This document shows, piece after piece, positions 5,066-22,729 of a DNA stretch of 35,959 nucleotides. Positions within the stretch are counted from its first letter, which is position 1; every line of letters starts with the position of its first letter. Under the pieces are notes generated by a model. That model was not told where the DNA came from. It did not search any database and saw nothing but the letters and a program-made list of their open reading frames with translations. The position numbers and the translations under genes are program-made. Source of the stretch: Clostridium sp. (GTDB lineage Bacteria > Bacteroidota > Bacteroidia > Bacteroidales > Bacteroidaceae); the NCBI GenBank assembly GCA_023663705.1, contig JAMPGY010000024.1:1-35959 (forward strand). Reading direction: 5' to 3'.

Positions 5066-5099
5066 CAGGGGCGGGACACTAAGTCGAAATATTATAATT

Positions 5100-6146
5100 A
5101 TGAATAATTTTAATAATTTAACATCGGGGGGGGTAAAAAGTACTCCGTCCCGCAGAATCGAATACATTGATGCCATGCGTGGATTCACGATGCTGCTGGT
5201 TGTGCTGGCGCACGTGGCCACTTTTGGCTTGGATATTTTTGGAGGAGAAAGTGTCACATCCTATCACATGTTCCTGCGACAGTTCCGTATGCCGCTGTTT
5301 TTCTTTGTCAGTGGTTTTGTCCTCTTCAAATCGGGGGCTGTTTGGAATCTGTCATCCGCTTGCAAATTCCTGAGAAAGAAAGTTAGCGTGCAGATACTCT
5401 CTCCGTTGTTGTTCCTCTCCGCATCAATCCTCACACGGCATATAGCTTTCCCGGACGCTCTGTTCGAATATTATATGTTCTATATTGTGCTTCACGCTCT
5501 GGCAGATGTTTGCCGCATGAAAAGCTGTTTCAAGGATGCTTTCCTGTTGCTGGTGTCCTTAGGGCTGTATGTATTCACTGTGCCCACCATGATAGGTCGA
5601 TGGCCTGTGACTCAGGAAATAAGCAGTCTGGTGGGGATTCCTGTGTGGAGCTACTTTTTCTTCTTCATGCTGGGGACGCGTGTGCGCAAGCATTTTTCCA
5701 CATTTGAGAAAGCGCTGGACGAAACACCTTTGTTGATGTGGTGCATAGTCATATATTTCGGATTCAACCTTTGCGGCGCATGGGTGAAGCAGCTGAGCCA
5801 CACCGGATTCAATCTGCTTGTCAGTCTGTCCGGGCTGATTATCGTGATAGCCCTGTTCCGTCGGAACAGGCAAACATTCTCATCCGAACGGCGCGTCGGC
5901 CGCATATTCCAATACGTTGGTCGTAGGACGCTCGACATATACCTGATACACTATTTCTTCGTGTTCAGCAACATGCAGGCTGTTCTGCCCGATTTCGGAA
6001 AGCTCAACTCCCCGTTCCTAGAGTTCGCCATCTCGCTAATCATAGCGATAGGCGTGATTGCCGCCAGTCTGACCGTGTCCCACGTGCTCCGTCTGAGTCC
6101 CGTGCTGGCTCATTATCTGTTCGGTCAGAAGAGGATGAAGGCTTGA
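5100..6146 (+). CDS. Acyltransferase family 3 membrane protein (O-acylation of polysaccharide), G8 tract near the start
   Basis: A 348-aa integral membrane acyltransferase (Acyl_transf_3/OafA-like), expected to move an acetyl or other acyl group onto a glycan at the inner membrane. The first membrane helix carries the usual R-x10-H arrangement (R27 to H38, in DAMRGFTMLLVVLAHV); RMPLFFFVSGFVLF follows, then about eight more hydrophobic helices. The ATG at 5100 lies 35 bp past the upxY relic. Codons 9-13 (S-G-G-V-K) are encoded by a G8 tract followed by TAAAA; loss of one G gives TAA directly after the tract. This is one of six such genes in the locus. Confidence 0.9.
   Translation: MNNFNNLTSGGVKSTPSRRIEYIDAMRGFTMLLVVLAHVATFGLDIFGGESVTSYHMFLRQFRMPLFFFVSGFVLFKSGAVWNLSSACKFLRKKVSVQILSPLLFLSASILTRHIAFPDALFEYYMFYIVLHALADVCRMKSCFKDAFLLLVSLGLYVFTVPTMIGRWPVTQEISSLVGIPVWSYFFFFMLGTRVRKHFSTFEKALDETPLLMWCIVIYFGFNLCGAWVKQLSHTGFNLLVSLSGLIIVIALFRRNRQTFSSERRVGRIFQYVGRRTLDIYLIHYFFVFSNMQAVLPDFGKLNSPFLEFAISLIIAIGVIAASLTVSHVLRLSPVLAHYLFGQKRMKA
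5126..5133 (+). repeat. G8 tract, predicted slippage switch 1
   Basis: G8 followed by TAAAAAG, read as TCG GGG GGG GTA AAA (codons 9-13). One G fewer gives an immediate TAA. One G more gives TGA about a dozen codons later. Both off-frames stop before the first membrane helix. Confidence 0.75.
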
Positions 6147-6235
6147 AGGTAAAGGATTGTGCTAATGCTCAATGCTCAAATGACGTGTTGTTTGAATTTG
6201 CAAAAAAGTGTTGAATAAACCTTAAGTATATTTCA

Positions 6236-7777
6236 ATGGCGGATAGAACACAAAAAAGTTTGAAGAATGCACAGGTATCCATGTTCTATTACTTTGTGCA
6301 ACTTATTCTTGGATTTTGGTCACGTAAGATATTTTTTCAATATCTCGGTAGTGAGATCTTAGGCTTGGATACAACTGCGGAGAATCTGTTGGGATTTCTT
6401 AATTTGGCGGAATTGGGCGTAGGAGTTTCTGTTGCTTACTTTCTTTATAAACCTTTATACGACCGGGATACCACGACAATCAATGAGATTGTAGCTATAC
6501 AGGGTTGGATTTATCGCCGGATTGCATTTGTCATTATGGGAGCGGCAGCAATATTGATGTGTTTTTTCCCATTAATATTTGCCAAATCTACCTTACCCCT
6601 GTGGTGTCCATACGCGACATTTTCGGTTATGCTTTTTGGCTCAATGCTGAGTTATTTTATCAACTACAAGCAGATAGTGCTTTCGGCAGACCAGAAGGGA
6701 TATAAAGTGACTGTTGCCACCCAAGGAGCCAGTGTGTTCTTTAAGGTCTTGCTTATCCTGTTGCTTCCGGTTGTGCCGCATCCATTCCTGTTCTATCTGT
6801 CTACAACCTTTGCAGGCAAGCTTTTTGGCTGTTTTTGGTTGCAATATGTATTGAGGAAGGAGTACCCTTGGCTTCAGGTGCCGGTAAAGAAGGGAAGAGA
6901 GTTGCTGAAACAATACCCGGGTGTACTGCAAAAGACAAAGCAGGTGTTCATTCACCGTATGGCCGGAGTTGTTTTACTGCAGGTGTCCCCGCTCATAATG
7001 TACGCTTTCACATCTCTGACTGTGATAGCATTCTATGGGAATTATGTCATACTGAATGGAAAGATAACCCAGCTGTTGGGTACTGTTTTCAGCAGTACTG
7101 GAGCCGGTATAGGCAATCTTATTGCCGGCAAGAATAAAGAGCGTATACATAATGTGTTTTGGGAACTGTTCGATTCACGGCTTTTTATGTCATGGACAAT
7201 GTTGTTCTGCCTGTATTTCCTTACGGAACCTTTCATCACGGTATGGTTGGGCAAAGAGTATCTGCTTAGCCACAGTTTGCTGGTGCTGGTTATCATTTCC
7301 TCTTCCATCGCTATCAATCGTATGACTGTAGATGCTTTCATTTCCGGGTATGGGTTATTCCAGGATATATGGGCGCCCGTTGTAGAGGCAATTATCAATT
7401 TGAGTGCGTCATTTGCCTTCGGATATTTTTTCGGTATAGAGGGAGTCCTTATGGGAACGATACTTAGCCAGTCCCTCATTATCGGTTTATGGAAGCCTTA
7501 TTTCCTGTTTTCAAAAGGAATGGGAGAGTCTCCGATGCCATATTTTATGATGTTGCTGGGCAGAATCATGCTATTGGCTGTGTGTTGGCTGATACTCAAT
7601 TACACAATATCGTTCTTACCCTTAGAGGCCATAAGCAATTACTTTGATTTTGCCTACTACGCTATCATCGTTTCGGCTGAGTCTCTGATATTGCTTTTTA
7701 TCTCGTTCTATGTATTCACAGCAGGAATGAAAAATTTTACGAGACGCATGTCAAGTATTGTTTTTAAGAAAGCCTGA
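6236..7777 (+). CDS. Polysaccharide flippase (Wzx-like)
   Basis: A 513-aa polytopic membrane protein of the polysaccharide transporter (MOP/Wzx) superfamily, expected to flip lipid-linked repeat units across the inner membrane. The N-terminus is basic and short, and helices alternate with small loops over the whole length, with about 12-14 membrane segments. The segment DTTAENLLGFLNLAELGVGVS is like that of other Bacteroidetes flippases. Length is normal for the family. It follows the first acyltransferase by 89 bp. The next gene begins 10 bp after its stop. It carries no G tract, in contrast to the acyltransferases around it. The family is clear; the substrate is unknown. Confidence 0.9.
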   Translation: MADRTQKSLKNAQVSMFYYFVQLILGFWSRKIFFQYLGSEILGLDTTAENLLGFLNLAELGVGVSVAYFLYKPLYDRDTTTINEIVAIQGWIYRRIAFVIMGAAAILMCFFPLIFAKSTLPLWCPYATFSVMLFGSMLSYFINYKQIVLSADQKGYKVTVATQGASVFFKVLLILLLPVVPHPFLFYLSTTFAGKLFGCFWLQYVLRKEYPWLQVPVKKGRELLKQYPGVLQKTKQVFIHRMAGVVLLQVSPLIMYAFTSLTVIAFYGNYVILNGKITQLLGTVFSSTGAGIGNLIAGKNKERIHNVFWELFDSRLFMSWTMLFCLYFLTEPFITVWLGKEYLLSHSLLVLVIISSSIAINRMTVDAFISGYGLFQDIWAPVVEAIINLSASFAFGYFFGIEGVLMGTILSQSLIIGLWKPYFLFSKGMGESPMPYFMMLLGRIMLLAVCWLILNYTISFLPLEAISNYFDFAYYAIIVSAESLILLFISFYVFTAGMKNFTRRMSSIVFKKA

Positions 7778-7787
7778 AAGAAATAAT

Positions 7788-8774
7788 ATGATGCGGATAA
7801 AACGATATGATTTCATCGACTGTGTCGGAGGATTATTGATCCTTCACATGATATTCTTCCACATTTTTCAGGCCGGACGACCTGGATTGTCGGCAGATAT
7901 AATGCGGCCGCTTTCCTTTTTCATGTTTTGGTTCTTTTATAAGTCAGGCATGTTTTTTAAACCAGAGTCATTTCGTGATTCACTTCACAAAGGATTACGT
8001 AAGCTGATAATACCGTATATTATATTTTCTTTCCTTGGATATACTGTATGGAGTATAAGGCAAATAGTGACAAGCGGTTTTAATTGGCATTCGCTTTTGG
8101 CAGAACCTATCCATGAATTGCTTTTTACAGGTACAATTACAGGAAATGTTGCTTTGTGGTTTCTTCCGTCTTTGCTTGTTACGCAGTTGTTATTCAGTTG
8201 TTTGTGTGAATCGGGGGGGGTAAAACGGGAACTCGTATTGATTATATGTATCAGTATGACTTTTGTATTTCATCTAACAGAAGTCGAACTCCCTTATTAT
8301 TGTTTAAACATTCCATTAGGATTGTCCGCTTACTCTTTTGGGAACATCATGAAAGACAAACAATATAACAGAATTATATTGTGGCTTTCAATAGGTCTTT
8401 ACTTAGGAATAGTGATAATCTATCCATCGGTTATAAGTTTCCGTGAGAATCAAATGATAGGTGAAGGTTCGTATCTACTTGCTATTGTATTTTCTTTTGC
8501 CGGCTGTATAGTCATAAATAATATATTCAAATATTGGGGGACAAAAAATCTTGGTTTTCTGCAATGGGTTGGTCGTAGAAGCATGGATTTCTATGCTCCC
8601 CATATGATAATTCTAACTTTATGTCTTTTTTGTCCCAAAATCTGTGTTCCTTGGTTAAAGGAGATACAATGTGCCGCATGCATAATATTACTTCCTTTGT
8701 TAAGTTGGCTTGCGGATTCTTATGGCTTTAGTTGGATTTTTGGGAGAAACGGTAATAAGAAACGCTATGTATAA
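7788..8774 (+). CDS. Acyltransferase family 3 membrane protein, internal G8 tract
   Basis: A 328-aa polytopic acyltransferase of the Acyl_transf_3/WecH-like class. The first helix carries paired histidines (LILHMIFFH, H20 and H25), and IIPYIIFSFLGY is typical of the third helix. The ATG at 7788 is preferred over an upstream in-frame codon that would lie inside the flippase gene; a second ATG follows directly at 7791. Codons 142-146 (S-G-G-V-K), in a loop between two membrane helices, are encoded by G8 followed by TAAAA. Loss of one G gives an immediate TAA and would remove the C-terminal half. It overlaps the next gene by 8 bp. Confidence 0.87.
   Translation: MMRIKRYDFIDCVGGLLILHMIFFHIFQAGRPGLSADIMRPLSFFMFWFFYKSGMFFKPESFRDSLHKGLRKLIIPYIIFSFLGYTVWSIRQIVTSGFNWHSLLAEPIHELLFTGTITGNVALWFLPSLLVTQLLFSCLCESGGVKRELVLIICISMTFVFHLTEVELPYYCLNIPLGLSAYSFGNIMKDKQYNRIILWLSIGLYLGIVIIYPSVISFRENQMIGEGSYLLAIVFSFAGCIVINNIFKYWGTKNLGFLQWVGRRSMDFYAPHMIILTLCLFCPKICVPWLKEIQCAACIILLPLLSWLADSYGFSWIFGRNGNKKRYV
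8213..8220 (+). repeat. G8 tract, predicted slippage switch 2
   Basis: G8 followed by TAAAAC, read as TCG GGG GGG GTA AAA at codons 142-146. One G fewer gives an immediate TAA. The peptide S-G-G-V-K is identical to that at switch 1, although the two genes otherwise differ there. Confidence 0.75.
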
Positions 8775-9840
8775 CATAAATTATATGAATTTAACGCAAT
8801 ATGATGTAGAATTTGTTATTCTATTTCTGGTATTAACTCTATTGTTTATAACCTCCTTAAGGATTATAACACAAGGAAATAGGGGGGGTAAAAGTCTGTT
8901 CTGTATTGACCTGAACACAACGCAGGCCTTGAAAGGAATAGCGTGTGTGCTTATACTTATGGGACATTGGTGCACGATGAGAATTCAACCGGATTTTTCT
9001 TTTATATCAAGAAATGTATGGCTATTTGCAGCTAATATCGCTTTAACTTGGTTCATGTTTTTCTCAGGATACGGAATGTCACTGAAAAGGGTTGATAAAG
9101 GAAAACATAAAAAGAAATGGAAAAAAAGTGTAGCAAAGATATATCTTCCATGTCTGCTGGTAAGCAGCATAGCATTCTTATTGTATGTCATACTTCCTGA
9201 GAATTTTTCTCAAGAAGAGTGCAACGCCCTGCATTTAAATTTCAATATATTTCTATTGCATCATATCACTCCGCATAACATCTCCGGTATATTTTGGTCA
9301 TTCCTTTTTGGAAATGGAAGTTGGTATGTGATGTGCATTCTGATATTTTACACACTGTTTTATTTGTCTTCATATATAGCAGGGAAAGGACAATGGAACT
9401 TTACATGGGTCTTAGCCGTTTTATTCTCCATTTATTTTGTATGTGCATATTTATATTTCGGACCTCTTCAAGCACATTATTATAGATATTGTTGGACTTT
9501 CATGTTTGGCCATGCCGTGGCAACCCGGACAAAAGCAAGCTGGGTAGCTGCCACTATGTTTCTAATCACATTAGGAACGGAAAACTGGGTGTTGCACATG
9601 TCGTATATAATGGCCGTCATCGGCTTGTGTATCATATCTGTGGTCAATACAAAATATAGCATAGATGGTAAATTAATTCTGTGGCTGGGCAGCGTTTCCT
9701 ATCTGTTTTATCTTTCTCACGAGGCTATCAGTTATGTTTTGCTTACCTATTTGAATATTGATAGTGTGATTGTTTGGTTCTTGTTCTCTCTATCGGTTGC
9801 CTCTGCACTTTATGTTTTGAAAAGGCGAATTCGTATATAG
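8767..9840 (+). CDS. Acyltransferase family 3 membrane protein, G7 tract after first helix
   Basis: A 357-aa polytopic acyltransferase. An extra N-terminal helix (about residues 10-30) comes before the conserved LKGIACVLILMGHW helix that starts the Acyl_transf_3 core. FMFFSGYGMSLK follows, as in this family. The start at 8767 overlaps the previous gene by 8 bp; ATG 8785 is an alternative. Codons 39-42 (R-G-G-K) are encoded by A-G7-TAAAA. The reading frame differs from the other five tracts: here one extra G gives TAA directly after the tract, and one fewer gives TGA within ten codons. The role is probably O-acylation of the capsule. Confidence 0.87.
   Translation: MYNINYMNLTQYDVEFVILFLVLTLLFITSLRIITQGNRGGKSLFCIDLNTTQALKGIACVLILMGHWCTMRIQPDFSFISRNVWLFAANIALTWFMFFSGYGMSLKRVDKGKHKKKWKKSVAKIYLPCLLVSSIAFLLYVILPENFSQEECNALHLNFNIFLLHHITPHNISGIFWSFLFGNGSWYVMCILIFYTLFYLSSYIAGKGQWNFTWVLAVLFSIYFVCAYLYFGPLQAHYYRYCWTFMFGHAVATRTKASWVAATMFLITLGTENWVLHMSYIMAVIGLCIISVVNTKYSIDGKLILWLGSVSYLFYLSHEAISYVLLTYLNIDSVIVWFLFSLSVASALYVLKRRIRI
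8882..8888 (+). repeat. G7 tract, predicted slippage switch 3
   Basis: G7 followed by TAAAAG, read as AGG GGG GGT AAA at codons 39-42. Gain of one G gives an immediate TAA; loss of one gives a TGA shortly after. This is the only tract of the six in this frame. Confidence 0.72.
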
Positions 9841-9855
9841 TAATAATTAAAAAGT

Positions 9856-11109
9856 ATGAGGGTCTTATGGTTTTCTCTTACTCCGTCACGTTATACAGGC
9901 GCGAAGGGTCTGGGTTACAATGGTGGAGGATGGATAGCTTCGTTGGAAGCGGAAATAACAAAGCAGGCTGGAGTAGAACTGGGCGTAGCTTTTATTAAGG
10001 GACGGAAATACGTCAGGGAATGTGTTGATAATGTCGTCTATTATGTTATGCCTGTCCCTCAAAAGAGCATAAGTGATAAGATTCGTTATTTTACCAATTA
10101 TGATGTACAAAAAGAGATTGCAGGATATCTGTCTGTTTTCAAAAAGGTTGTAGATGATTTCAAACCGGATATTATTCAGGTATTCGGTTCTGAAAGCTAC
10201 CTCGGATTTGTACAGCAGGTGACAGATATTCCCTGTGTCCTTCATATTCAAGGAGTAATTAATCCATATTGGAATGCGTATTTCCCGCCTGGTTTTTCAA
10301 GGAATACATACATCTTCAGAAATAAATCGCCGAAGAAGGTTTTTTCTTCATATAAGGAACTTAAAACCTGGGAAAACAATTGTAGGTGTGAGCAAGAATT
10401 GTTAAAGCAGATAAACTACTATATAGGACGTACAGGATGGGATGAAACGATAACAAAGATATTTAATCCCGATGCCCGGTATTACTATTGTTCTGAAATA
10501 TTGAGAGAGTCTTTCTATTCTGCACCTCAACGCTGCCTTCCTGAAAAAATGACCGTTGTCTCTACCATGTCCGGTGTGATATATAAAGGGCTTGACCTTA
10601 TACTGAAAACAGCATTTGTTATGAAAAAAATGATGTGTGCCGATTTTAGATGGATTGTTTATGGCAGCATGAATAATATTTTGTTTTTTGAAAGGCAAAC
10701 TGGTATTAGGGGAGAAGATGTAAATGTTGAATTTCGTGGTGTTGCCACGGAAAGGGAAATTTGTCAGACGTTGTGTAATGCAACTGTTTTTGCACAGGTT
10801 TCGTATATAGACAATTCGCCCAATGCGGTATGTGAGGCACAGATTGTAGGTTGTCCTGTGGTTGCTACCAATGTGGGGGGAGTCTCATCGATTGTTGATA
10901 ACGGGAAAACTGGTATTCTTGTTCCTGCCAATGATCCTTATCAGATGGCTTGGCAATTGATAGTGCTTCATAAAGATAAAGAACAGAATCAAAGAATATC
11001 TTTTCATGGAATGAAGAGTGCGAGAGAACGCCATGACAAAAGGCATATAACAGAAAGTTTGCTTCAGATATATGATGCTATAATATCAGACAATAAAAGA
11101 TTTTCATAA
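9856..11109 (+). CDS. Glycosyltransferase family 4
   Basis: A 417-aa GT-B glycosyltransferase (GT4, Glycos_transf_1). The N-terminal acceptor domain opens with MRVLWFSLTPSRYTG and a glycine-rich loop (GYNGGGWIASLE). The C-terminal nucleotide-sugar domain has the family's E-x7-E region around NSPNAVCEAQIVGCPVVAT and the following GGVSSIVDNGKTGILV. It should add one sugar to the lipid-linked repeat unit in the cytoplasm. The gene is 15 bp after the preceding acyltransferase and 1 bp before the next gene. A G6 run inside the GG-V motif is ordinary family sequence and lacks the TAAAA flank. Confidence 0.9.
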   Translation: MRVLWFSLTPSRYTGAKGLGYNGGGWIASLEAEITKQAGVELGVAFIKGRKYVRECVDNVVYYVMPVPQKSISDKIRYFTNYDVQKEIAGYLSVFKKVVDDFKPDIIQVFGSESYLGFVQQVTDIPCVLHIQGVINPYWNAYFPPGFSRNTYIFRNKSPKKVFSSYKELKTWENNCRCEQELLKQINYYIGRTGWDETITKIFNPDARYYYCSEILRESFYSAPQRCLPEKMTVVSTMSGVIYKGLDLILKTAFVMKKMMCADFRWIVYGSMNNILFFERQTGIRGEDVNVEFRGVATEREICQTLCNATVFAQVSYIDNSPNAVCEAQIVGCPVVATNVGGVSSIVDNGKTGILVPANDPYQMAWQLIVLHKDKEQNQRISFHGMKSARERHDKRHITESLLQIYDAIISDNKRFS

Positions 11110-11110
11110 G

Positions 11111-11674
11111 ATGATAAAGTCAAAACAAGATCTGAACGAATATTTGCTTGCAGACGGGAAAAACTACCCTTGTCAATTGGGGGGGGTAGTAAAAGCGTTG
11201 ATTTACAGAAGGATAGATACACCTATAAGAGATCAGTGGTATATATGGAGATATGTAAAGGCGCTTCGTATGGTAGAGTATCATCTTAATAATGCAAGTT
11301 TATGGCATCGTGCAATGCATAAATATTGGTTGTTCAAGCTAAGACACTATTCTTATAAAACCGGTTTTCAGATCGAACCGAACACTTGTGGTAAAGGCTT
11401 ATGTATATATCATTATGGCTACATAATAGTAAATGGTCAGGCGCGCATAGGCGAAAACTGTATACTTACGCCTGGTGTTGTGGTTGGTCAGACCAATAAA
11501 GGTTGTGTTCCCACGATAGGCAATAATGTGACATTGTGTACGGGAGCTAAAATCGTCGGTAAAGTATATGTTGGGAATAACGCTATAGTTGCACCTAATA
11601 CGGTTGTTATAAAAGATGTGCCGGACAATGCAACGGTAAGTGGCGTACCGGCAAAAATTATCAGACAACGATAA
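11111..11674 (+). CDS. Serine-acetyltransferase-like hexapeptide acetyltransferase, G8 tract near the start
   Basis: A 187-aa left-handed beta-helix acetyltransferase resembling CysE-type enzymes of CPS loci, where they are likely sugar O-acetyltransferases. The N-terminal 90 residues are helical. Hexapeptide repeats run from about residue 95 (GKGLCIYHYG...ARIGENCILTPGVVVGQ) to the end (VSGVPAKIIRQR). Codons 23-28 (L-G-G-V-V-K) are encoded by G8 followed by TAGTAAAA; loss of one G gives TAG directly behind the tract. It begins 1 bp after the GT4 gene. This is one of two hexapeptide enzymes among the six tract-bearing genes. Confidence 0.88.
   Translation: MIKSKQDLNEYLLADGKNYPCQLGGVVKALIYRRIDTPIRDQWYIWRYVKALRMVEYHLNNASLWHRAMHKYWLFKLRHYSYKTGFQIEPNTCGKGLCIYHYGYIIVNGQARIGENCILTPGVVVGQTNKGCVPTIGNNVTLCTGAKIVGKVYVGNNAIVAPNTVVIKDVPDNATVSGVPAKIIRQR
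11179..11186 (+). repeat. G8 tract, predicted slippage switch 4
   Basis: G8 followed by TAGTAAAAG, read as TTG GGG GGG GTA GTA AAA at codons 23-28. Loss of one G gives an immediate TAG. The flank looks like the common TAAAA flank with three extra bases (TAG) before it. Confidence 0.72.
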
Positions 11675-11684
11675 AATCAGTCAA

Positions 11685-12716
11685 ATGATATCTGTAATTA
11701 TACCTATATATAATGTAGAAAAGTATCTCGATCGCTGTATCCAGTCTTTAATAAGACAGACATACCGCGATTTGGAAATAATTCTCGTAGATGATGGTTC
11801 ACCGGACCGTTGTCCGCAAATGTGTGATGAATATGAGAAGCTGGATAGTCGCATAAAGGTAATTCATAAGGAAAATGCGGGACAAGGACTGGCTCGTAAT
11901 GATGGCTTGGAATTGGCCAAAGGAGAATATGTTACGTTTGTAGACAGTGATGATTTCCTTGCATTAAATGCCATTGAATTAATGCTTGATGCAACGGAGC
12001 AGGGCAAGCATGATATTGTTTGTGCAGCTTTCTATAACAGCTGGACCCCTGAGAAAGGAGGTAATCTGGCTTATTCGTTAGACGAGGTGAAAAGCGGTTC
12101 TAATGAGGTTTCGGAAGCTTTGGCGGATTTAACGGCAGCCCCTTGGGACAGTCCGTTGCCGGCGATACGTTTTATGGGAGCATGTGGGACGCTTATACGA
12201 ACTCGCATAATTAAAGAGAATAACCTGAAATTTCGCTCGGAGCGACAAGTTATATCCGAAGATCTGCTTTTTTTATATGACTTGTATCCTTATGTCAGCA
12301 GCATCCGATACATTCCGGAGGGACTCTATTATTATTGCCTGAATACAGCTTCTACCAGTCGCACTTTTAAGTCTCAATATATTGAATGTATAGATATATT
12401 AATGCAGTATTTGCTTGACTCCCGCATGGCAAAGGAAAGTCTGGAAATTCAGGACCGAATCCTGAAACTGATTATTTATAAATGCGGAATATTGCAAAGT
12501 CAGATATTTCAATCGGATTTGTCTTTAAAGGAGAAATACAGATTAAGCCATCTTATTTATAAAAAAACGGTATGGCAAAATATTATAGAAAGATATCCAA
12601 CGGATAAATTGCCGCATTCTTATAGATATTACCTTTCTGTCTTTGTGCATAAACGTTTTTTTATGGCATACATGCGTTTGCGACTTTATGCTTTAAGGAA
12701 ACGGATAGGATTGTAG
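11685..12716 (+). CDS. Glycosyltransferase family 2
   Basis: A 343-aa GT-A glycosyltransferase (GT2). The N-terminus has the classic MISVIIPIYNVEKYLDRCI strand, ILVDDGSPD for nucleotide binding, and FVDSDDF (the DxD metal site). SEDLLFLYDLYPY is typical of CPS GT2 enzymes. The ATG at 11685 places the fold at residue 1; an earlier in-frame ATG would lie inside the preceding gene. It is 10 bp after the acetyltransferase. No membrane anchor is obvious, so it probably works at the inner face of the membrane. The sugar is unknown. Confidence 0.92.
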   Translation: MISVIIPIYNVEKYLDRCIQSLIRQTYRDLEIILVDDGSPDRCPQMCDEYEKLDSRIKVIHKENAGQGLARNDGLELAKGEYVTFVDSDDFLALNAIELMLDATEQGKHDIVCAAFYNSWTPEKGGNLAYSLDEVKSGSNEVSEALADLTAAPWDSPLPAIRFMGACGTLIRTRIIKENNLKFRSERQVISEDLLFLYDLYPYVSSIRYIPEGLYYYCLNTASTSRTFKSQYIECIDILMQYLLDSRMAKESLEIQDRILKLIIYKCGILQSQIFQSDLSLKEKYRLSHLIYKKTVWQNIIERYPTDKLPHSYRYYLSVFVHKRFFMAYMRLRLYALRKRIGL

Positions 12717-12772
12717 GAGCGGGAAATAATATAATTGAAATAATAACATGTAATGAAAAAACGGAGGTTCAA

Positions 12773-13498: not shown

Positions 13499-13504
13499 GA
13501 ATAT

Positions 13505-14473
13505 ATGTATAATCTTTCGGATAAAAATATATTGGTAACAGGAGCTTGTGGCCTGATAGGCGGAGCGATTGTTGATGTTTTGTTGCATGAATGTAAGGAT
13601 TGTAATGTTTATGCTTTGGTACGTAACAAGCAAAAAGCAGATGAGCGCTTCAAAACGCATATAAATAACAGCCGTTTTCATATTGTCATCGGTGATGTTA
13701 ATATACCTTTGGTGGGAGACCGGCCATACCATTATATTATTAATGCTGCAAGTAACGCCAATCCTAATGCTTTTGCAACAGATCCGGTAGGGACGTTTTG
13801 GACAAACGTGAATGGTACGAAGAACTTATTGGATTACGGTGTAATGCATGGTTTGGAGCGTTTTCTTTATGTTTCTTCGGGGGAAGTTTATGGTGAAGGA
13901 GGAAAGTTGTGGACAGAATCGGATAGCGGTTATGTCGATACGATGTCAATGCGTTCTTGTTACCCCACATCCAAACGTGCGGCTGAAACACTTTGTACTG
14001 CATTTGCAAAGCAATATGGTAAAGATGTTGTCATAGCCCGTCCATGTCACATTTATGGCCCACGATTTTCAGAGAATGACAATCGTGCTTATGCACAGTT
14101 TATCCGCAATGCCGTATCCGGACATGATATTATAATGAAAAGTACAGGAGAGCAATATCGATCATGGCTTTATGTAGAGGATTGCGCTCATGCCATTCTT
14201 GCAATCCTGCAAAAGGGGGAAAATGGCGAGGCATACAATGTGGCGGATGAAAACAGTTGCATAACCATTCGGGAGTTGGCTGAAAATATTGCAGAGGTGG
14301 CCGGTGTGAAGGTTTTAGTTGATATTCCATGCGAATTGGAAAAAAGCGGTTATACTCCGATTCAAAAAGCTGTTTTCGATACGGCAAAAGTGAGGTCTTT
14401 GGGGTGGAAGCCTGAATTTAAGTTAAAGGAGGCTGTTGCTAAAACGATAGAACAAATAAAAAGCGAACTATAA
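13505..14473 (+). CDS. NAD-dependent epimerase/reductase (extended SDR)
   Basis: A 322-aa extended short-chain dehydrogenase/reductase. The dinucleotide-binding loop is TGACGLIGGA near residue 13. The active site has the usual Ser pair (FLYVSSGEVYG) and YPTSK as YxxxK. PCHIYGPR and the later SWLYVEDCAHAI are typical of sugar-nucleotide epimerases. Between the cytidylyltransferase (6 bp before) and licD (2 bp after), it probably makes or modifies the polyol or sugar precursor that becomes CDP-activated. It is not a TarJ-type alcohol dehydrogenase, so the exact reaction is uncertain. Confidence 0.87.
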   Translation: MYNLSDKNILVTGACGLIGGAIVDVLLHECKDCNVYALVRNKQKADERFKTHINNSRFHIVIGDVNIPLVGDRPYHYIINAASNANPNAFATDPVGTFWTNVNGTKNLLDYGVMHGLERFLYVSSGEVYGEGGKLWTESDSGYVDTMSMRSCYPTSKRAAETLCTAFAKQYGKDVVIARPCHIYGPRFSENDNRAYAQFIRNAVSGHDIIMKSTGEQYRSWLYVEDCAHAILAILQKGENGEAYNVADENSCITIRELAENIAEVAGVKVLVDIPCELEKSGYTPIQKAVFDTAKVRSLGWKPEFKLKEAVAKTIEQIKSEL

Positions 14474-14475
14474 TA

Positions 14476-15198: not shown

Positions 15199-15210
15199 AA
15201 ACTTGGACAA

Positions 15211-16230
15211 ATGAATATCGCAGTTATTGGGGGAAATGGAAAGTACTCCATGGAATCAAGCTTGTCCAATGCGTTGGTTGCAAAGGGACAGGTAAGTCGT
15301 GTATTTGATATTTACAATCACTGGTTCTATACATCTAAGTCAATAAAGAAATATACAGTTCCTACAGATCAGTTCGTTAGGAAAAGTATTGAGGCATACG
15401 ACAGAAAAAGCTGGTTGCATTTAGCCCATGAAGTGGAGAGAATGTCTCCTGATTTAGTGATATGTATCGATAGGCGCATCCATCCGGTTTTCGTGTCTGC
15501 TTTGAAAAAAACATACCGGAAGATTATACATATTAATCCGGATTCATTTTACACATTAGGTGCACAACAGGTTTTTGCAAGCGATTATGACGCATGGTTT
15601 GTTAAGGATGCCTACATGTTGCGTTTTATGAAGGACAATATGAAACTTAACGCATTTATGTATAATGAAGTTACCGATGTTCGTTTAAGTCCAAAGCCTC
15701 AAGAGCCTAAATATGTGGTTGAAGAAAAGATAGGTGTGGATGTGATGACTTATGGAACATTATATCCTTATCGCACACGGATACTGAAACTCATTGCTGA
15801 TGCCGGCATTTCCATAAAGTTGTATGGGACTGTTCCACATCGTTTTTTTGACAAGTCTTTGTCAGATGCATTTACAGGAGAGTTTATTTTAGGAGCAAGG
15901 AGAGCAGAGGTTATTTATGGCTCAAAAATAGCATTGAACACACTGCATTTTGCTGAAGTTGAAGCGGTGAATGCCCGTTTCTATCAAATAAACGGTAGCG
16001 GCGGATTTCAGTTGTGCGACTATAGACCTATGCTTAAGGATGTGCTGCCCGTCGACCCGGAACTGGTATCATATAAAACTACGGATGAGTGTATAGAGAA
16101 AATAAAATACTATCTTGCTCATCCACAGGAACGTTACGAAATCGCCGAGAAAATATATCAATACTCTGTTGAGCATTTTAGCTTTGAAAATCTTGCACAG
16201 TATATCTTAGGGGTAGTAGAGGAATTATAA
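15211..16230 (+). CDS. CgeB-like glycosyltransferase
   Basis: A 339-aa protein resembling CgeB/Glyco_trans_1_2-type GT-B transferases. The first half forms Rossmann-like sequence (MNIAVIGGNGKYSMES, DLVICIDRRIHPVF, KIIHINPDSF). The C-terminal part has GVDVMTYGTLYPYRTRIL, the family's conserved acceptor-sugar segment, and NARFYQINGSGGFQLCDY, which aligns with the 'R-x-FE-x-x-ACG-x-x-x-L' region of such enzymes. It is expected to be cytoplasmic and to add one sugar. It is 12 bp after licD and 11 bp before the fucosyltransferase. Substrate unknown. Confidence 0.8.
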   Translation: MNIAVIGGNGKYSMESSLSNALVAKGQVSRVFDIYNHWFYTSKSIKKYTVPTDQFVRKSIEAYDRKSWLHLAHEVERMSPDLVICIDRRIHPVFVSALKKTYRKIIHINPDSFYTLGAQQVFASDYDAWFVKDAYMLRFMKDNMKLNAFMYNEVTDVRLSPKPQEPKYVVEEKIGVDVMTYGTLYPYRTRILKLIADAGISIKLYGTVPHRFFDKSLSDAFTGEFILGARRAEVIYGSKIALNTLHFAEVEAVNARFYQINGSGGFQLCDYRPMLKDVLPVDPELVSYKTTDECIEKIKYYLAHPQERYEIAEKIYQYSVEHFSFENLAQYILGVVEEL

Positions 16231-16241
16231 GAAATAATTAT

Positions 16242-17306
16242 ATGAAGGTTATACACATAGAATCAGGACTTGGCAATCAGATGCTGTCGTATTGTGAATA
16301 TTTGGCCATAAAAAAAATGAATCCTGATGATGACGTTTATATTGAGAATATAATATTTGACATACCGGAGTGTAATTCCGTGGTAAATCAGTGGAACGGA
16401 TATGAGCTGCAAAGTGTTTTTGGAATAGAGGCTCCCAATATAAAACAATTGTTTACGGAAGAGCAATGGCAGAAAATATTGGCGGAGATACGTAATCGGG
16501 AGTTTTGGAATCGTAAATGGAATTACGGTGTACATTTTACAGAGGCTTTCCGGCATGCCGGTCTGGACTTGACGAATACTTGTCCGGATCACGAAGCTCC
16601 CGGCGTGCCGGAAATAATACCTCCGCAAAATCCCTCTTTAAAACAGAAAGCCATTACATTTGCATGGCATCACTTTTTGCCGCTAACCTATTTACATGAG
16701 TATATGGCACGTAAAAGAGGTTATCGTATTTTGAAAACTGCTAATTATGATTTCCTTTTCTGTCAGAGTCCTGAAGATATGTATATAGGACAAAGGCTTG
16801 ACTTTAAAAAGAAAAATGCAGGTATAGAACGTATTGAAAAAGAAATCAAACAAGCGTTTAAATTTCCCGCATTAACAGACCAACGGGATATTGACGCGGT
16901 AAAGCAAATAAGGAGTTGCAACGCTGTAGCTATTCATGCCCGTAGGGGAGATATGCTTGGCGAAAATTATGGTTTGTATGCTACAGGATATTTCAAACGT
17001 GCTGTAGGGTATATCCGTAAACGGACGGAAAATCCGGTTTTTTATATTTTCACTGACCCCAATAGTGTGGCATGGTGTAGGGATAATGCCCGAATACTTG
17101 GCCTGAACATCAAAAATGATAAGATATTCTTTGTAGACTGGAATAAGGGAAATTGTAGCTTTCGGGATATGCAACTGATGGCAGAATGCAAGCATCAGGT
17201 GATAACCAACAGTACATTTGGCTGGTGGGGTGCATATTTCAACACAAACCCCGACAAGATAACTTGCTCCCCATTTGCTTATATAAACACAACTCATACC
17301 TTTTAG
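16242..17306 (+). CDS. Alpha-1,2-fucosyltransferase-like (GT11)
   Basis: A 354-aa protein of glycosyltransferase family 11. The N-terminus VIHIESGLGNQMLSYCEY is the family's opening motif. HARRGD near residue 231 is the HxRRxD GDP-fucose site. IFTDPNSVAWC and NSTFGWWGAYFN are the conserved C-terminal motifs. GT11 enzymes usually add L-fucose from GDP-fucose in alpha-1,2 linkage, and fucosylated surface glycans are common in Bacteroides. No GDP-fucose synthesis gene is in the window, so the donor must come from elsewhere (for example Fkp salvage). It is followed after 5 bp by the polymerase gene. Confidence 0.92.
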   Translation: MKVIHIESGLGNQMLSYCEYLAIKKMNPDDDVYIENIIFDIPECNSVVNQWNGYELQSVFGIEAPNIKQLFTEEQWQKILAEIRNREFWNRKWNYGVHFTEAFRHAGLDLTNTCPDHEAPGVPEIIPPQNPSLKQKAITFAWHHFLPLTYLHEYMARKRGYRILKTANYDFLFCQSPEDMYIGQRLDFKKKNAGIERIEKEIKQAFKFPALTDQRDIDAVKQIRSCNAVAIHARRGDMLGENYGLYATGYFKRAVGYIRKRTENPVFYIFTDPNSVAWCRDNARILGLNIKNDKIFFVDWNKGNCSFRDMQLMAECKHQVITNSTFGWWGAYFNTNPDKITCSPFAYINTTHTF

Positions 17307-17311
17307 TCGAA

Positions 17312-18634
17312 ATGTTTTTTGGTTTTTTTGCATTGGCAATACTTCCAATATTTTCTTCACTGAAAAGAATATATGACCGTCAGGGCTTAAATATTTTTGA
17401 TGTCACCCTTGTCTTCTCGGCTCTTTACTTTTGGGCAATACCGGTAAAAGACTTCTTTGTAAATCATGTACGGCCGGAATATATTCAGCATACTCCGACT
17501 GCTTTTGCTGTATGCTTGTATATGTGTCTGTTAGGTGTATGTGCGGCTATATATTCACGTAAGAAGAAATCACCTTTATATGTCACGGAGCGTTTGGCGG
17601 AGATAAAGATAATGCAGATAAAAGATTCGTTTCAATGGCTTGCTTTGATATATATTGCTTATATGCTGTTTCAAATAACGAATTATGCTGCATTGGATGA
17701 TGAGAATATAGAAGGCAACAATAATTTCTTTTACGGGACAGATGCAAATATTATCATGAAGATGATATTGGTGCCGTTTCGCACATTTTTCCCTGTTGTT
17801 TTTATCGTCCTGTGGTCAAATATTCCTGCGAAGAGCTTTTATAAGCAATTGCGGAAAATAAACATTGTATTGATTGTAGTTGCGCTGTTGCTTGGAAACA
17901 AGGGGTTCATGATGTTTAACTGTACGTTTCTTGCCTTGTATCTATATTCCATCAAACGTAAACAAATATCAAGGAATCAGATTATTCTATATGTTTCTGC
18001 AGTTATTGTTGCGTTGTCATTTGTATTCCCTTTATCGCAATCTTTTCGCTATTATAAGCAAGATGTAGTGAAACACTCGTCGGTACATGATTTTACAACG
18101 GTCTTGTCCGGGTTTATTGAAAATGGTGTGAGTGATGACTTGAAGGAGCGTGTAGAAGCGTATGAGAAAGGGCGCTCGCTTAATTTATACGATGCGGTTG
18201 ATTTTGCAGCTTCCCGCACCGAATACCGTGGTTGGGGGCATTTGACATGGATTGTATTAAGTTATATTATCCCCCAACGGATGAGAAATGACGGTAACAT
18301 TATGGCGGTAATGATGCAAGGCGGAGGAGACGTTGGAGAAAGCATACTGGCATGGCATGTGCTTGATTGGGGGATTCTTATAGGTCCGTGCATGGCAGTT
18401 CTTCATTATTTGATATTGTATTTATTATATTATTATATCGGTATATATTTCAATCGTTGGATCAAATCGCCCGTATATCCTCTTGTCATATATTCATTTA
18501 TTTTAAGATTGGCTATAGGTTGTGAACATAATCCCAATGCGGATATAAAAGCGATTTATAACACATATTACTTGATTATTATATTCGCTGGGATTGTTTT
18601 ATATTATTATCGCAGAAAGAATGTAAGGGTGTAA
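17312..18634 (+). CDS. Wzy-like repeat-unit polymerase
   Basis: A 440-aa polytopic membrane protein with about 10-12 hydrophobic helices and a larger hydrophilic loop around residues 245-320 (from SQSFRYYKQDVV to the segment before WIVLSYIIPQRM). This is the layout of O-antigen/capsule polymerases, which have poor sequence conservation. It is the only such protein in the locus, so it is the natural partner of the flippase at 6236. The start ATG at 17312 lies just after the fucosyltransferase stop; longer in-frame starts would overlap that gene. The assignment rests on topology and context more than on motifs. Confidence 0.8.
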   Translation: MFFGFFALAILPIFSSLKRIYDRQGLNIFDVTLVFSALYFWAIPVKDFFVNHVRPEYIQHTPTAFAVCLYMCLLGVCAAIYSRKKKSPLYVTERLAEIKIMQIKDSFQWLALIYIAYMLFQITNYAALDDENIEGNNNFFYGTDANIIMKMILVPFRTFFPVVFIVLWSNIPAKSFYKQLRKINIVLIVVALLLGNKGFMMFNCTFLALYLYSIKRKQISRNQIILYVSAVIVALSFVFPLSQSFRYYKQDVVKHSSVHDFTTVLSGFIENGVSDDLKERVEAYEKGRSLNLYDAVDFAASRTEYRGWGHLTWIVLSYIIPQRMRNDGNIMAVMMQGGGDVGESILAWHVLDWGILIGPCMAVLHYLILYLLYYYIGIYFNRWIKSPVYPLVIYSFILRLAIGCEHNPNADIKAIYNTYYLIIIFAGIVLYYYRRKNVRV

Positions 18635-18653
18635 TATTAAATGATAACATAAC

Positions 18654-19619
18654 ATGATAGTTGAACTTTTTTTGAATTTTAATTTCTGGCTTGAATCAAG
18701 AACAGAGAGCAGACCCAAAGAACAAAGAACCCTTATTTCGAAGGTTGTGCTGAATGGACTGAAATTAGTATGTACCTATATGGTGTATGGGTATCTGTCT
18801 TTGCTGAAAAAGCTTGGGATGATACGGATAAAACCTTTGATTGATGACGGCAAGCTGCCCATTGTCTCACTGACGACATTTCCAGCACGTATTGATAATT
18901 TATGGATGGTCCTGTATTGCATTTTTCGGCAAAGCGTACGTCCGGCAAAAATAGTCGTAACCCTTATTGAAGAAGAAATGCCGGGAGGGAATGCTTCGCT
19001 TGCACCTGTTCTGCGCTATTTTGAGAGTTACGGTGTGGAATTCCTTTTTGAAAAGGAGAACCTTCGTCCACACAATAAGTATTTTTATTGCAGACAGAAA
19101 TATAACAATAGAGATGTTATAACAATAGATGACGATTTACTGTATTACAGTAAGACAATAGAGCGACTTTTAGAACTTCATAAGAGGTATCCCAATTGCG
19201 TTTGTACGAATAGAGGAACGTTGATTAAGACCGATGAATCAGGTTTCCTCTCATCGCGTTTCTGGCCCACGGTATTACATGACAAAGGACCTTCTTTGGA
19301 TATTATAGCCTTGGGGTATTCCGCTGTATTCTATCCCGCAACTTTTCAATCACCGCTACTTTATGATGTAAAACTGATAAAAGACTTGTCATTGGGGACA
19401 GATGACTTATGGTTAAGGGCTATAGAAACGGTTGAAGGTATTGGTGTTGTAAATGGCGGGTATTATGCACACCCCATGACTTTGCCAACGTCTCAGGCAA
19501 TAGCTTTGCAAAAACGCAATTGTGCAATAATGGATAATGGCAATGATATTAATTGGCATAAACTTAATTGTTATTTCGGTTTGTATGATTTATTGAAAAA
19601 TCATACTGATAAGTTGTGA
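18654..19619 (+). CDS. Probable GT-A glycosyltransferase
   Basis: A 321-aa protein. After about 65 N-terminal residues that may associate with the membrane comes a GT-A-like fold: PIVSLTTFPARIDNLWMV, then VRPAKIVVTLIEEEMP, then PHNKYFYC and the acidic motif VITIDDDLLY (residues about 160-170), which should bind the metal and sugar nucleotide. A GTDDLWLRAIE segment follows late. This pattern occurs in capsule-locus transferases distantly related to GT2. It overlaps the start region of the next GT2 gene. Function as a glycosyltransferase is likely; the sugar cannot be inferred. Confidence 0.75.
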   Translation: MIVELFLNFNFWLESRTESRPKEQRTLISKVVLNGLKLVCTYMVYGYLSLLKKLGMIRIKPLIDDGKLPIVSLTTFPARIDNLWMVLYCIFRQSVRPAKIVVTLIEEEMPGGNASLAPVLRYFESYGVEFLFEKENLRPHNKYFYCRQKYNNRDVITIDDDLLYYSKTIERLLELHKRYPNCVCTNRGTLIKTDESGFLSSRFWPTVLHDKGPSLDIIALGYSAVFYPATFQSPLLYDVKLIKDLSLGTDDLWLRAIETVEGIGVVNGGYYAHPMTLPTSQAIALQKRNCAIMDNGNDINWHKLNCYFGLYDLLKNHTDKL

Positions 19620-19621
19620 AG

Positions 19622-20455
19622 ATGCGGCTTTCTATAATTATACCTTTATATAATAAGGAAACGTTTATAGCGAATACTTTGGAGTCTGTTTTGTCTTCTT
19701 GTTTTGACGACTTTGAGGTTTTAGTAGTAAACGATGGATCGACAGACAGATCTCAATATATCGTCGAACAAATAAAAGACAGCAGATTACGTCTTATAAA
19801 CAAACCGAACGAGGGGGTCTCCGCAACTCGAAATAGAGGAATTAATGAGGCAAAAGGAGATTATATTTGTCTTATTGATGCGGATGACATATTATTGTCC
19901 GGTGCAATTGAAGAATTTTCAAGAATGGTAAATGATTCGGGGAAATGTAGTGTTTTGATTGCGAGTTATGTAGAGAAAAACAATGAAGGGAAGATTGTGA
20001 AATCCTGTGTTTGTAAAGACGGGATTATTACTGATGCAATGTATGCTTTGTGGCATAAGGACATCTATCCACGAATGGGCAATGTTTTTATTAAACGAAC
20101 TTTTATCCAAGAAGTTGGTATGATGCGAACAGATCTCACTCTTTATGAAGACAAAGAATGGATACTGCGTTTATTGCGTAATAGTTCTGTTTATGGTTCA
20201 AGTAAAGTCTTGCTTGAATACAGACGTTGTGCAGGAGGACTTAGCTTTAATATGCCTTCAATAAAGAATGATTTTGCCGGTATAGTTAGATTGGGAGATG
20301 TAAAAAATAAATATGAGAGATTGATCGTAGGAGATTTTCTTATGCGCAGATTGATACGTAGGATGTTAGCCAAGGATGTATTAGGTGTGTTAGATATCTT
20401 GAAATTAAATTGGAAGTATCTCCATATTATGATTTGGGCATTTATAAGTAAATAA
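19622..20455 (+). CDS. Glycosyltransferase family 2
   Basis: A 277-aa GT2 enzyme: [18 protein letters not shown] at the N-terminus, [12 protein letters not shown] for nucleotide binding, and LIDADDI as the metal-binding site. [14 protein letters not shown] is the usual acidic segment before the catalytic loop. The ATG at 19622 is preferred. An upstream in-frame GTG at 19616 overlaps the previous stop and would allow translational coupling. It is 5 bp before the next acetyltransferase. No membrane anchor, so it is likely a cytoplasmic-face enzyme adding one sugar. Confidence 0.9.
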
Positions 20456-20460
20456 AAGCT

Positions 20461-21063
20461 ATGATTCGTTATTTGAAGCGTCTGCGAGACCTTTGGCTGA
20501 AGGGGGTGGTGTGGCATAGATACAAGATTGGAAAGAATTTCCATTGCGGCCGCGGCACATTCCTTTGGGCGAGGAACAGACTGGAGATCGGTGATAATTT
20601 TTATTTTGGAAAGTATTCCAGCATTGAGACCAACTGCATTATAGGAAATAATGTCATCATTGCCAATCATGTGGGAATTGTAGGGCGGTATGATCACAAT
20701 TACCAGCAGGTTGGCGTTCCGGTTCGTTTAGCGATGCAAATGCACGATGCTGATTATGACTGGAAAGGAAAAGATGAGCTAACGGTAATCGGTGATGATG
20801 TGTGGATAGGCTATGGCGCTATTGTCATGAGTGGCGTACATATTGCTGACGGATGTATTATTGCGTCTGGGGCTGTAGTGACAAAGGACACTGAACCATA
20901 TACTATTTATGGTGGTGTGCCTGCAAAAAAAATATCTGATCGTTTTGAAAAAATGGAAGATAGAGAAAAACATATTAATTTGCTTTACGGAAAGTTAATG
21001 GATATGAAACAGGGGGGGGTAAAACTAAAGTTTTGTTATTCACCTAATAGGCTTATAGCTTAA
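20461..21063 (+). CDS. Hexapeptide O-acetyltransferase, G8 tract near the C-terminus
   Basis: A 200-aa left-handed beta-helix acetyltransferase (WcaF/CapG-like). Hexapeptide repeats run from about residue 28 ([19 protein letters not shown]) through [19 protein letters not shown] to GGVPAKKI near residue 160. Codons 184-188 (Q-G-G-V-K) are encoded by G8 followed by TAAAA. Loss of one G gives an immediate TAA and removes only the last 14 residues, well beyond the beta-helix, so the effect of slippage here is less clear than in the other genes. It is probably a sugar O-acetyltransferase. Confidence 0.88.
21012..21019 (+). repeat. G8 tract, predicted slippage switch 5
   Basis: G8 followed by TAAAAC, read as CAG GGG GGG GTA AAA at codons 184-188 of 200. 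Loss of one G gives an immediate TAA. It is the only tract near a C-terminus, so slippage would trim the protein rather than abolish it. Confidence 0.7.
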
Positions 21064-21091
21064 TGTCTGGTTATGTAAAGTTATAAGTCTT

Positions 21092-21739
21092 ATGGATTTA
21101 GGAAAATACTTAAAAAATTTCTTCTCTAAAAAGAAACTGAATAAAAGCATCTCGTGGTTTGCCTTTTGGGATTCTGAGTCTGAATTTCCTGATGATGTGT
21201 ATCTTGCTGCATTCTGCAGATTGATGAATTGCAAGGTTGGGCGATATACAAGGATAAAACCTGGATGTGTTTTCAAGAATGTCACAATCGGCAGGTTCTG
21301 TAGTTTTGCAAACGACGTTATGATCGGATTGGGGCAACATCCAACTTTTTTGCTTTCCACCAATTCTATATTTTATAAGAAAGGTATAAGCGACAAGTTT
21401 GCGCACGCCATTGATTATGACGAAGAGCCACGCACAACTATCGGCAACGATGTTTGGATTGGCAATGGGGCGGTGGTGATGGATGGTGTGACCATTGGTG
21501 ACGGGGCTATTGTAGCGTCAAGAGCGGTTGTGACAAAGGATGTTCCTCCTTATGCTGTGGTTGGAGGCGTGCCGGCAAAGATTCTGAAATACCGTTTCCC
21601 GCAGGATATAATAGAAATACTGGAAAAGTGGGAATGGTGGAATTGCTCCGATGATGAGTTGAAGAAGATTCTGCCCTTGTTTACGGAGAATGATATAACA
21701 TTAGACAAGTTAAAGGTATATATAAAAGATTTGTCATAA
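21092..21739 (+). CDS. CatB-type hexapeptide acetyltransferase, no G tract
   Basis: A 215-aa beta-helix acetyltransferase of the xenobiotic-acetyltransferase (CatB/Vat) type used in CPS loci for sugar O- or N-acetylation. Key segments are [21 protein letters not shown], the looped insertion around [31 protein letters not shown] and [14 protein letters not shown]. The last 45 residues are a helical tail. It lies 28 bp after the preceding acetyltransferase. It is the only one of the seven acyl/acetyltransferases in the locus without a G7-G8 tract, which makes it a useful internal control for that pattern. Confidence 0.9.
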
Positions 21740-21754
21740 AAAAGCTCAAATCAG

Positions 21755-22729
21755 ATGGGAAATGATAGAGTGAGACAGCGTGATGTCGGCATTGATATAC
21801 TGAAATGTATAGCTGCCATTTTGATTACAAATAGCCATATGGAACTGCTTTACGGTAAATATAGCGTATTGGCAACCGGTGGTGCCATTGGTGATGCTTT
21901 ATTCTTCTTTGTTTCAGGCTTTACACTCTTTTTAGGGGGGGTGAAATCATTTGATAATTATTATAAAAGAAGGATAAATCGGATATATCCCACCGTGTTT
22001 GCATGGGCTTTGGTCGGTAGTGTGGTTTTTAATATTCATAGGGATATTAAGGACGTATTATTGTCCGGAGGAGGGTGGTTTGTCAGTTGCATAATGATAT
22101 ATTATGTGATTCTGTGGTTTGTGCGCAGATATATGATCAACCGGCTGAGAGTTGTATTTGCGCTTAGTGCATGTGTTGTGGGCTTATGGTTTTGCATGAT
22201 ACCGGTGCCGGATGGTTTCAACATGTATGGAGCCACTTATTTCAAGTGGTGTTTCTTTTTCCTGTTCATGCTTCAGGGAGCTATGATGGGTAAATCTGTA
22301 CAGCAACATACGGGCAGTCTGTTTAAATACGGTCTGTCTTTACTGGTGTGTGTCATTGCTTACTACGGTTTGTGCGCATTGAGATTATGTCCGGATTATT
22401 CGCTATTTCAAATTTTCTCATTGTTGCCGTTGTTGGGTGTGACGTATTGTTTTTACCGGGTTTGCCATTCACCGTGGATGATAGAGATATATAGTCATAG
22501 ATTATGGGGCTGGCTGATACGTTTTATCGGTGGTCTTTGTTTGGAGATATATCTGGTGCAATCTTCTTTGTTTACGGACAGGATGAATGCTATATTCCCT
22601 TTCAATATCCCGATTATGTTCCTGATAATCTTGATAGCGGCATATCTGTTGCGCTGTCTGTCTCGTATCTGGAGCCAGACTTTTAAAGAACAGGATTACG
22701 AATGGAAGAGTGTCTTCGCGTTTTTGTAA
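21755..22729 (+). CDS. Acyltransferase family 3 membrane protein, internal G7 tract
   Basis: A 324-aa polytopic acyltransferase. The first helix is DILKCIAAILITNSHMELL, with the family's conserved His (NSH). ALFFFVSGFTLFL is the second helix, and YYKRRINRIYP is the conserved basic loop before helix three. Codons 60-64 (L-G-G-V-K), just after helix two, are encoded by G7 followed by TGAAA. Loss of one G gives an immediate TGA and would cut the protein after two helices. It is the last gene of the continuous operon: the next gene follows a 357-bp gap containing decayed sequence. Confidence 0.9.
   Translation: MGNDRVRQRDVGIDILKCIAAILITNSHMELLYGKYSVLATGGAIGDALFFFVSGFTLFLGGVKSFDNYYKRRINRIYPTVFAWALVGSVVFNIHRDIKDVLLSGGGWFVSCIMIYYVILWFVRRYMINRLRVVFALSACVVGLWFCMIPVPDGFNMYGATYFKWCFFFLFMLQGAMMGKSVQQHTGSLFKYGLSLLVCVIAYYGLCALRLCPDYSLFQIFSLLPLLGVTYCFYRVCHSPWMIEIYSHRLWGWLIRFIGGLCLEIYLVQSSLFTDRMNAIFPFNIPIMFLIILIAAYLLRCLSRIWSQTFKEQDYEWKSVFAFL
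21935..21941 (+). repeat. G7 tract, predicted slippage switch 6
   Basis: G7 followed by TGAAATC, read as TTA GGG GGG GTG AAA at codons 60-64. Loss of one G gives an immediate TGA, and gain of one gives TGA four codons past the tract. The flank differs from the others (TGAAA, not TAAAA), yet the stop-in-frame geometry is kept. Confidence 0.72.

Follow-up and report, generated by a model that had tools for sequence, protein, structure and literature searches.

Poly-G tracts in the acyltransferase genes of a Bacteroidaceae capsule locus as probable slipped-strand switches of capsule decoration

Results

The window analysed here is the whole 35,959-nucleotide stretch of contig JAMPGY010000024.1 (GenBank assembly GCA_023663705.1), from a bacterium listed as Clostridium sp. 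and placed by GTDB in the Bacteroidaceae. Its acyltransferase families sit within a locus that by its genes is of capsule type and may make a surface structure. Six of the acyl-type genes of this locus contain a run of seven or eight G residues (G7 or G8), and these poly-G tracts are the subject of this study. The genes and their tracts, with the bases that follow each tract given as its flank, are as follows.

5016..6146 (+), membrane acyltransferase, PF01757 (listed open reading frame (ORF); homologues with tracts in L144, L386 and L394); G8 tract at 5126..5133 (+), TAAAA flank, in the N-terminal coding region
7758..8774 (+), membrane acyltransferase, PF01757; G8 tract at 8213..8220 (+), TAAAA flank, mid-gene between two predicted membrane segments
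8710..9840 (+), membrane acyltransferase, PF01757; G7 tract at 8882..8888 (+), TAAAA flank, after the first predicted membrane segment and ahead of the acyltransferase domain
11111..11674 (+), hexapeptide acetyltransferase, PF00132 (serine O-acetyltransferase and WcaB models match below their cut-offs); G8 tract at 11179..11186 (+), TAGTAAAA flank, near the 5' end
20461..21063 (+), hexapeptide acetyltransferase, PF00132; G8 tract at 21012..21019 (+), TAAAA flank, codon 184 of 200, at the 3' end
21755..22729 (+), membrane acyltransferase, PF01757; G7 tract at 21935..21941 (+), TGAAA flank, just past a predicted membrane segment
21092..21739 (+), third hexapeptide protein, without a tract, the sole exception among the seven acyl-type genes

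All six tracts are in frame on the coding strand, exactly where a preliminary description of the sequence had placed them and with the flanks that it gave (TAAAA at four tracts, TAGTAAAA and TGAAA at one each). The whole window contains no further run of G7 or longer on either strand. As had been predicted, the tract-bearing products are acyltransferases, by Pfam four PF01757 membrane proteins and two PF00132 hexapeptide proteins. In the four membrane proteins the peptide encoded by the tract lies beside a predicted membrane segment or near the N-terminus, and the true start of the 5016 gene is probably the ATG just 5' of its tract. The encoded peptide had been described as G-G-V-K or R-G-G-K, which needs amending at the 11179 tract, where it is G-G-V-V-K. 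The other twelve capsule genes carry no tract.

9856, 11640, 15211, 16242, 19616 and 23087, glycosyltransferases by Pfam
18654, weak glycosyltransferase match, below cut-off
12773, IspD-like cytidylyltransferase
13505, epimerase
14476, LicD
17186, repeat-unit polymerase match, below cut-off
6236, presumed flippase from its membrane character and position, without a family match

A tract is therefore present in 6/7 acyl-type genes, not all because of the tract-free gene 21092-21739, and in 0/12 other capsule genes (Fisher p = 2.6e-4; by length alone, 1.0e-3). When the synonymous codons of these 19 capsule genes were redrawn in 2000 trials, 0 to 4 tracts arose, at most two of which were followed by a stop triplet, against six and six observed; 0/2000 redraws reached six tracts, and a codon-order shuffle gave at most five. 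The homopolymers inside these genes are thus longer than composition predicts, and a chance origin of the six tracts was rejected. A dinucleotide shuffle of the whole window gave a weaker result, with a mean of 3.9 overlapping G7 matches versus 10 observed and 3/100 shuffles reaching 10, probably because the window ends are GC-rich.

A stop triplet, out of the reading frame, abuts the 3' side of every tract (6/6), and an immediate stop follows the loss of one G at five tracts and the gain of one G at the sixth (8882). With one G fewer, translation would end at codon 40 of 376 as the ORF is listed (5126 tract), codon 155 of 338 with 154 residues remaining (8213), codon 68 of 376 (8882, where one G more gives a stop at codon 61), codon 26 of 187 (11179) or codon 63 of 324 (21935); at 21012 only the final 14 of 200 residues would be lost. 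A one-unit change therefore yields a frameshifted, truncated product, the 21012 protein losing its tail only. Much of the protein is lost in five of the six genes and less than one fifth remains in four (all but 8213 and 21012). The 64 combinations first proposed are too many, since the small effect at 21012 leaves at most five clear on/off switches. TAAAA reads as a stop in one frame and as lysine in another, which accounts for this flank at coding tracts.

Differences in tract length and frame are present among related genomes. G065 and G188, two genomes of one other genus, share a related locus with aligned blocks 82 to 96% identical, and a 3.0-kb block of it (94.8% identical) contains an acyltransferase orthologous to the product of window gene 5016 and 36-38% identical to it. 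In G065 this gene has a G9 tract and stays open for 355 codons, whereas in G188 it has G8, a stop right behind the tract and 307 codons; the surroundings are identical for 9 bases before the tract and 83 after it. The tract lies near the C-terminus, a different position from the N-terminal tract of the window gene, and in both genomes the PF01757 match falls in the upstream part of the acyltransferase. The comparison of tract lengths in relatives that the preliminary description had proposed thus gave, once, a read-through and a cut at the same site in close relatives. In both genomes the gene next upstream breaks off at its own G8 tract; its 5' part matches PF01757 below the cut-off and its downstream part has no Pfam match.

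Homologues of the 21755 product point the same way. L272 has G8 and TAAAA where the window has G7 and TGAAA. At about one place the tract is G8 and in frame in L279, G9 and in frame in L282, and G10 and frame-broken in L280; L151, one and the same gene as L279, shares 39% identity in its corresponding portion with the L280 sequence beyond the tract. The acyltransferase of L157 is broken mid-gene at G10. Tracts at the 5' end of an acyltransferase in L144 and of a hexapeptide gene in L147 are apparently out of frame with the upstream ATG, and in L156 and others the tract is in frame. The inactive cases in relatives have tracts of G8 to G10. The one-G orthologue difference and the two further acyltransferases broken at G10 (L280 and L157) speak for the slipped-strand mechanism that had been suggested. 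Homologues of the 8710 product gave two weak matches in other genomes among 251 searched, too few for comparison. A search of genome contigs for a second assembly of the source species, in which near records may be omitted, found none; four distant loci matched.

The preliminary description had also called for acyltransferases to be compared with glycosyltransferases, and three comparisons favour acyltransferases over family-2 glycosyltransferases. A sense G7+ tract occurs in 7/18 homologues of acyltransferase 21755 and in 0/29 of glycosyltransferase 19616 (Fisher p = 5.1e-4; 4/15 versus 0/29, p = 0.010, with same-site or close pairs merged). Among 70 loci fetched by the tract pattern, which cover part of the 227 family matches given below and over-represent the source genus, tracts flanked by T(A/G)A fell within eight PF01757 genes, one PF00535 gene and one PF00534 glycosyltransferase gene, the last two both near the gene end. 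Relative to a background of at least 589 PF01757 and at least 1983 PF00535 matches in 101 genomes, eight versus one has a binomial p of 5e-5; merging orthologues (7 versus 1) gives 2e-4. Adding a family-2 glycosyltransferase of G065, which is frame-broken at a G8 and is a counter-example to exclusivity, gives 7 versus 2 (8e-4). The third comparison, within the source genome, is taken up in the Discussion. Of the 30 top-scoring PF00535 loci, themselves judged a poor sample, six contain a G7+ run (one being the window), none inside the matched glycosyltransferase gene.

The placement of tracts in acyltransferases only, as first described, holds in the window and was rejected for the family, where other gene classes carry the same tract and flank. 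These include SusC-like receptor genes (mostly in G094), type I specificity, methylase and hybrid two-component genes, genes for a PAS protein, a sulfatase-domain protein and a Penicillinase_R repressor, and occasional glycosyltransferase genes. Seven large SusC-like genes of G094 (L169, L171, L172, L173, L176, L177 and L178), two of them scanned with Pfam, have G8-G9 followed by TAAAA close to the N-terminus; relative to the longest upstream frame, three are in frame and four are not. They are likely phase-variable receptors. A type I restriction specificity gene of L180 (- strand) has G12 and G11 tracts at 14199 and 14740, so that a phase-variable methylome is possible there. In L165 (- strand, 9118) a hybrid two-component regulator is split at a G11 into 451 and 926 codons, the downstream part having been scanned. 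A G23 at 58 of L149 (- strand) precedes an AraC-type gene, and a G14 with a similar flank lies at 4911 of L148 (- strand), another contig of the same genome; both are near contig ends. The source genome also encodes an MBOAT O-acyltransferase with a G8 flanked by TATTG.

The source genome (G000; 2.74 Mb, 43 contigs) holds 71 runs of G7+. The pattern GGGGGGGTAAAA has nine matches in it, four of them inside the window, and the reversed pattern none. In 151 genomes of the family there are 227 matches (82 genomes) versus 58 for the reversed pattern; in 244 Bacteroidota genomes of other families, by hand sums, there are 34 (29 genomes) versus 41, so that the enrichment is not a phylum-wide trait. 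In 611 kb of related loci, chosen by gene homology and not by tract pattern, run lengths of G5/G6/G7/G8/G9+ number 257/37/4/11/8, with no simple decay, and TAA directly follows about 2% of runs of G1-G6, 0/4 of G7 and 12/19 of G8+. Among 99 G9+ runs in 18 genomes of the source genus, not selected by flank, the next base is T (51 runs), A (27) or C (21). Two long runs in the source genome stand apart: a G14 at C5:21248-21261, antisense near the start of an 870-codon ORF of outer-membrane type (type assigned by eye), and, at C29:874-889, a G16 with TAAACC behind it.

The flank is also found outside genes. Ten tracts of the source genome that by eye are apparently intergenic are followed by TAA or TAG, and in a set partly selected by pattern TAA follows 48/63 non-coding and 58/104 sense-coding G8+ tracts; G8+ tracts in open frames of that set are 104 sense versus 33 antisense. 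The box TAnnTTTG occurs exactly 19 nt past 9 of 140 TA-flanked tracts, and its reverse complement there once. Genes after these nine tracts mostly start like exported proteins. The tracts concerned are G7-G10 with TAAAA or TAATT, followed by the -7 box, at L084:17917 (+), L084 (-) 14573, L037 (-) 3962, L046 (-) 2418 and L079:2273 in the source genome and in L136, L138, L141 and L161 of relatives. At such sites poly-G is possibly a promoter element that replaces the -33 box. A promoter role for the six window tracts was rejected, since the box is absent from the 60 nt 3' of all six.

The head of the locus carries the following features.

185..1408 (+), tyrosine recombinase, PF13102 and PF00589, adjoining inverted repeats
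1452..1695, candidate invertible promoter; 52-nt inverted repeats 1452-1503 and 1644-1695, 94% complementary, 140 nt between
1858..2535 (+), UpxY-like antiterminator, first in the capsule locus; NF033644 68 bits (cut-off 100), no Pfam match

The inverted repeats lie between the recombinase and the UpxY-like gene, and the candidate promoter at 1452-1695 probably inverts. By eye, a TAnnTTTG-type box at the inner end of the left repeat points leftward in the assembly, away from the locus. The 3' end of UpxY recurs as a truncated copy at 4790-5062 (82% identical, two stops), after a 710-codon ORF (2615-4747) that looks as if it had been inserted along with a duplication.

Discussion

We propose, with a probability of roughly 0.8, that the six tracts are simple-sequence contingency loci that provide slipped-strand phase variation of capsule acylation beneath the candidate invertible promoter. 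Because a one-G difference breaks a gene in related genomes, the tracts are probably random on/off switches for capsule decoration. The tracts themselves, their frames and flanks, the class of gene that holds them and the length and frame differences between related genomes are observed, while the rate and reversibility of switching, the acyl substrate and the benefit are inferred. Slippage of the replicating strands would add or delete one G, and the resulting frame shift would cut the acyltransferase short, in many cases at the stop triplet abutting the tract. A later slip would restore the frame. Each cell would thereby toggle individual acyl decorations of one capsule at random, and these switches would lie beneath a locus-wide on/off control exerted by the probably inverting promoter, giving two layers.

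Several observations weigh against this proposal. All six window genes are intact, with short tracts of G7-G8, and tracts of this length, to judge from other bacteria, may slip slowly. Slippage at 21012 would scarcely inactivate the gene. Tract lengths in the window come from one draft assembly, with one genome per species, and in draft assemblies single homopolymer lengths are possibly wrong. The frame break of L275 lies away from its G8, and in L267 and L268, which account for two of the seven tracts of 21755 homologues, the flank is TGG. TAA also stands 3' of intergenic tracts, where a stop is meaningless, and a stop codon explains neither these nor the nine tracts with TAnnTTTG at 19 nt. 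In the source genome, where genes outside the window were assigned by eye from translations, 4/12 PF01757 genes versus 0/28 family-2 glycosyltransferase genes have a tract when the flank is required (p = 0.005), and 4/12 versus 2/28 when G7 runs without the flank are counted (p = 0.055). Finally, 0/30 of the top-scoring PF01757 loci of the family, which we also judge a poor sample, have a G7+ run; the tracts thus mark a subset of that family, probably its capsule-associated members.

The same G-tract and TAAAA might instead be a signal recognised by a protein or polymerase (a regulator binding site, a pause site or a site that promotes slippage), with frame effects secondary. The flank at intergenic tracts, its similar frequency at coding and non-coding tracts in the partly selected set, and the fixed 19-nt spacing of TAnnTTTG beyond nine tracts all suit such a signal. 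We nevertheless consider it unlikely, given that no window tract has the box within 60 nt, that the sense orientation predominates among G8+ tracts in open frames, and that several tracts of relatives are frame-broken, which a binding site would not need. A broader form of this idea, similarly doubtful, makes G8-TAAAA a dedicated DNA element of the family. The element would be recognised in trans and would occur in promoters around position -33, 19 nt before TAnnTTTG, as well as inside surface-glycan, SusC-like and restriction genes. If this were true, one factor could govern transcription at promoters and slippage or expression within genes, as a genome-wide switch system instead of independent random tracts.

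Two further explanations appear far less probable still. Gly-Gly-Val-Lys loops written in G-rich codons could yield such tracts as a by-product of chance or composition, and in the four membrane proteins the tract-encoded peptides do sit at positions where small residues may be tolerated. Composition alone, however, reaches six tracts in neither the synonymous redraw nor the codon-order shuffle; TAA stands mainly behind long runs, and homologues bear their tracts at differing places, some of them frame-breaking. Equally improbable is simple decay, in which acyltransferases would become pseudogenes by replication slippage, without selected switching. Relatives do hold broken acyltransferases, that of L275 away from its tract, and the accessible part of PMC3090145 describes a polysaccharide locus of B. 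fragilis in which acetyltransferase-related genes are disrupted. Against decay stand the six intact genes of the window and the recurrence of long tracts with a common flank across several genera, since decay would not keep tracts.

If phase variation of single acyl groups is indeed a second layer of switching, one capsule locus would present more surface forms to phages, antibodies and lectins. Such a layer would be overlooked by methods that seek inversions. The idea is cheap to test, since deep reads give tract lengths directly.

The window tracts resemble the homopolymeric contingency loci of Campylobacter, Neisseria and others in being coding poly-G tracts in genes for presumed surface-glycan enzymes, and differ in belonging to another phylum. 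Known examples in those genera are largely glycosyltransferases, and we know of no conserved TAAAA flank at loci of that type. In C. jejuni cgtB, as far as the available text of PMC6437147 describes it, the length of a coding poly-G tract sets the frame of a surface-glycan enzyme. Slippage-type phase variation of acetyltransferases has precedents in meningococcal pglI, which acts on surface glycans (excerpts of PMC5445459), and in the E. coli K1 O-acetyltransferase, as told in PMC3090145; on the accounts available these are single acetyltransferases, unlike the six of seven acyl-type genes of one capsule locus found here. In the literature searched, outside which lie most subscription journals and bioRxiv preprints, the nearest prior hint for Bacteroidales is the accessible part of PMC3090145. 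There an added C shifts the frame of an acetyltransferase of B. fragilis PSI/9 and the authors suggest slippage; that run is of only 4 Cs, in one strain, and this part of the source mentions no set of tracts or flank. The literature consulted, as far as its accessible text goes, puts capsule variation of gut Bacteroidales down to DNA inversion, and invertible capsule promoters with UpxY/UpxZ are described for Bacteroides in the available portion of PMC12632263. At the head of the locus the window, like those loci, combines a UpxY-like gene with inverted repeats and a recombinase. Whereas inversion in Bacteroides switches the whole locus, the poly-G tracts would switch single decorations within it.

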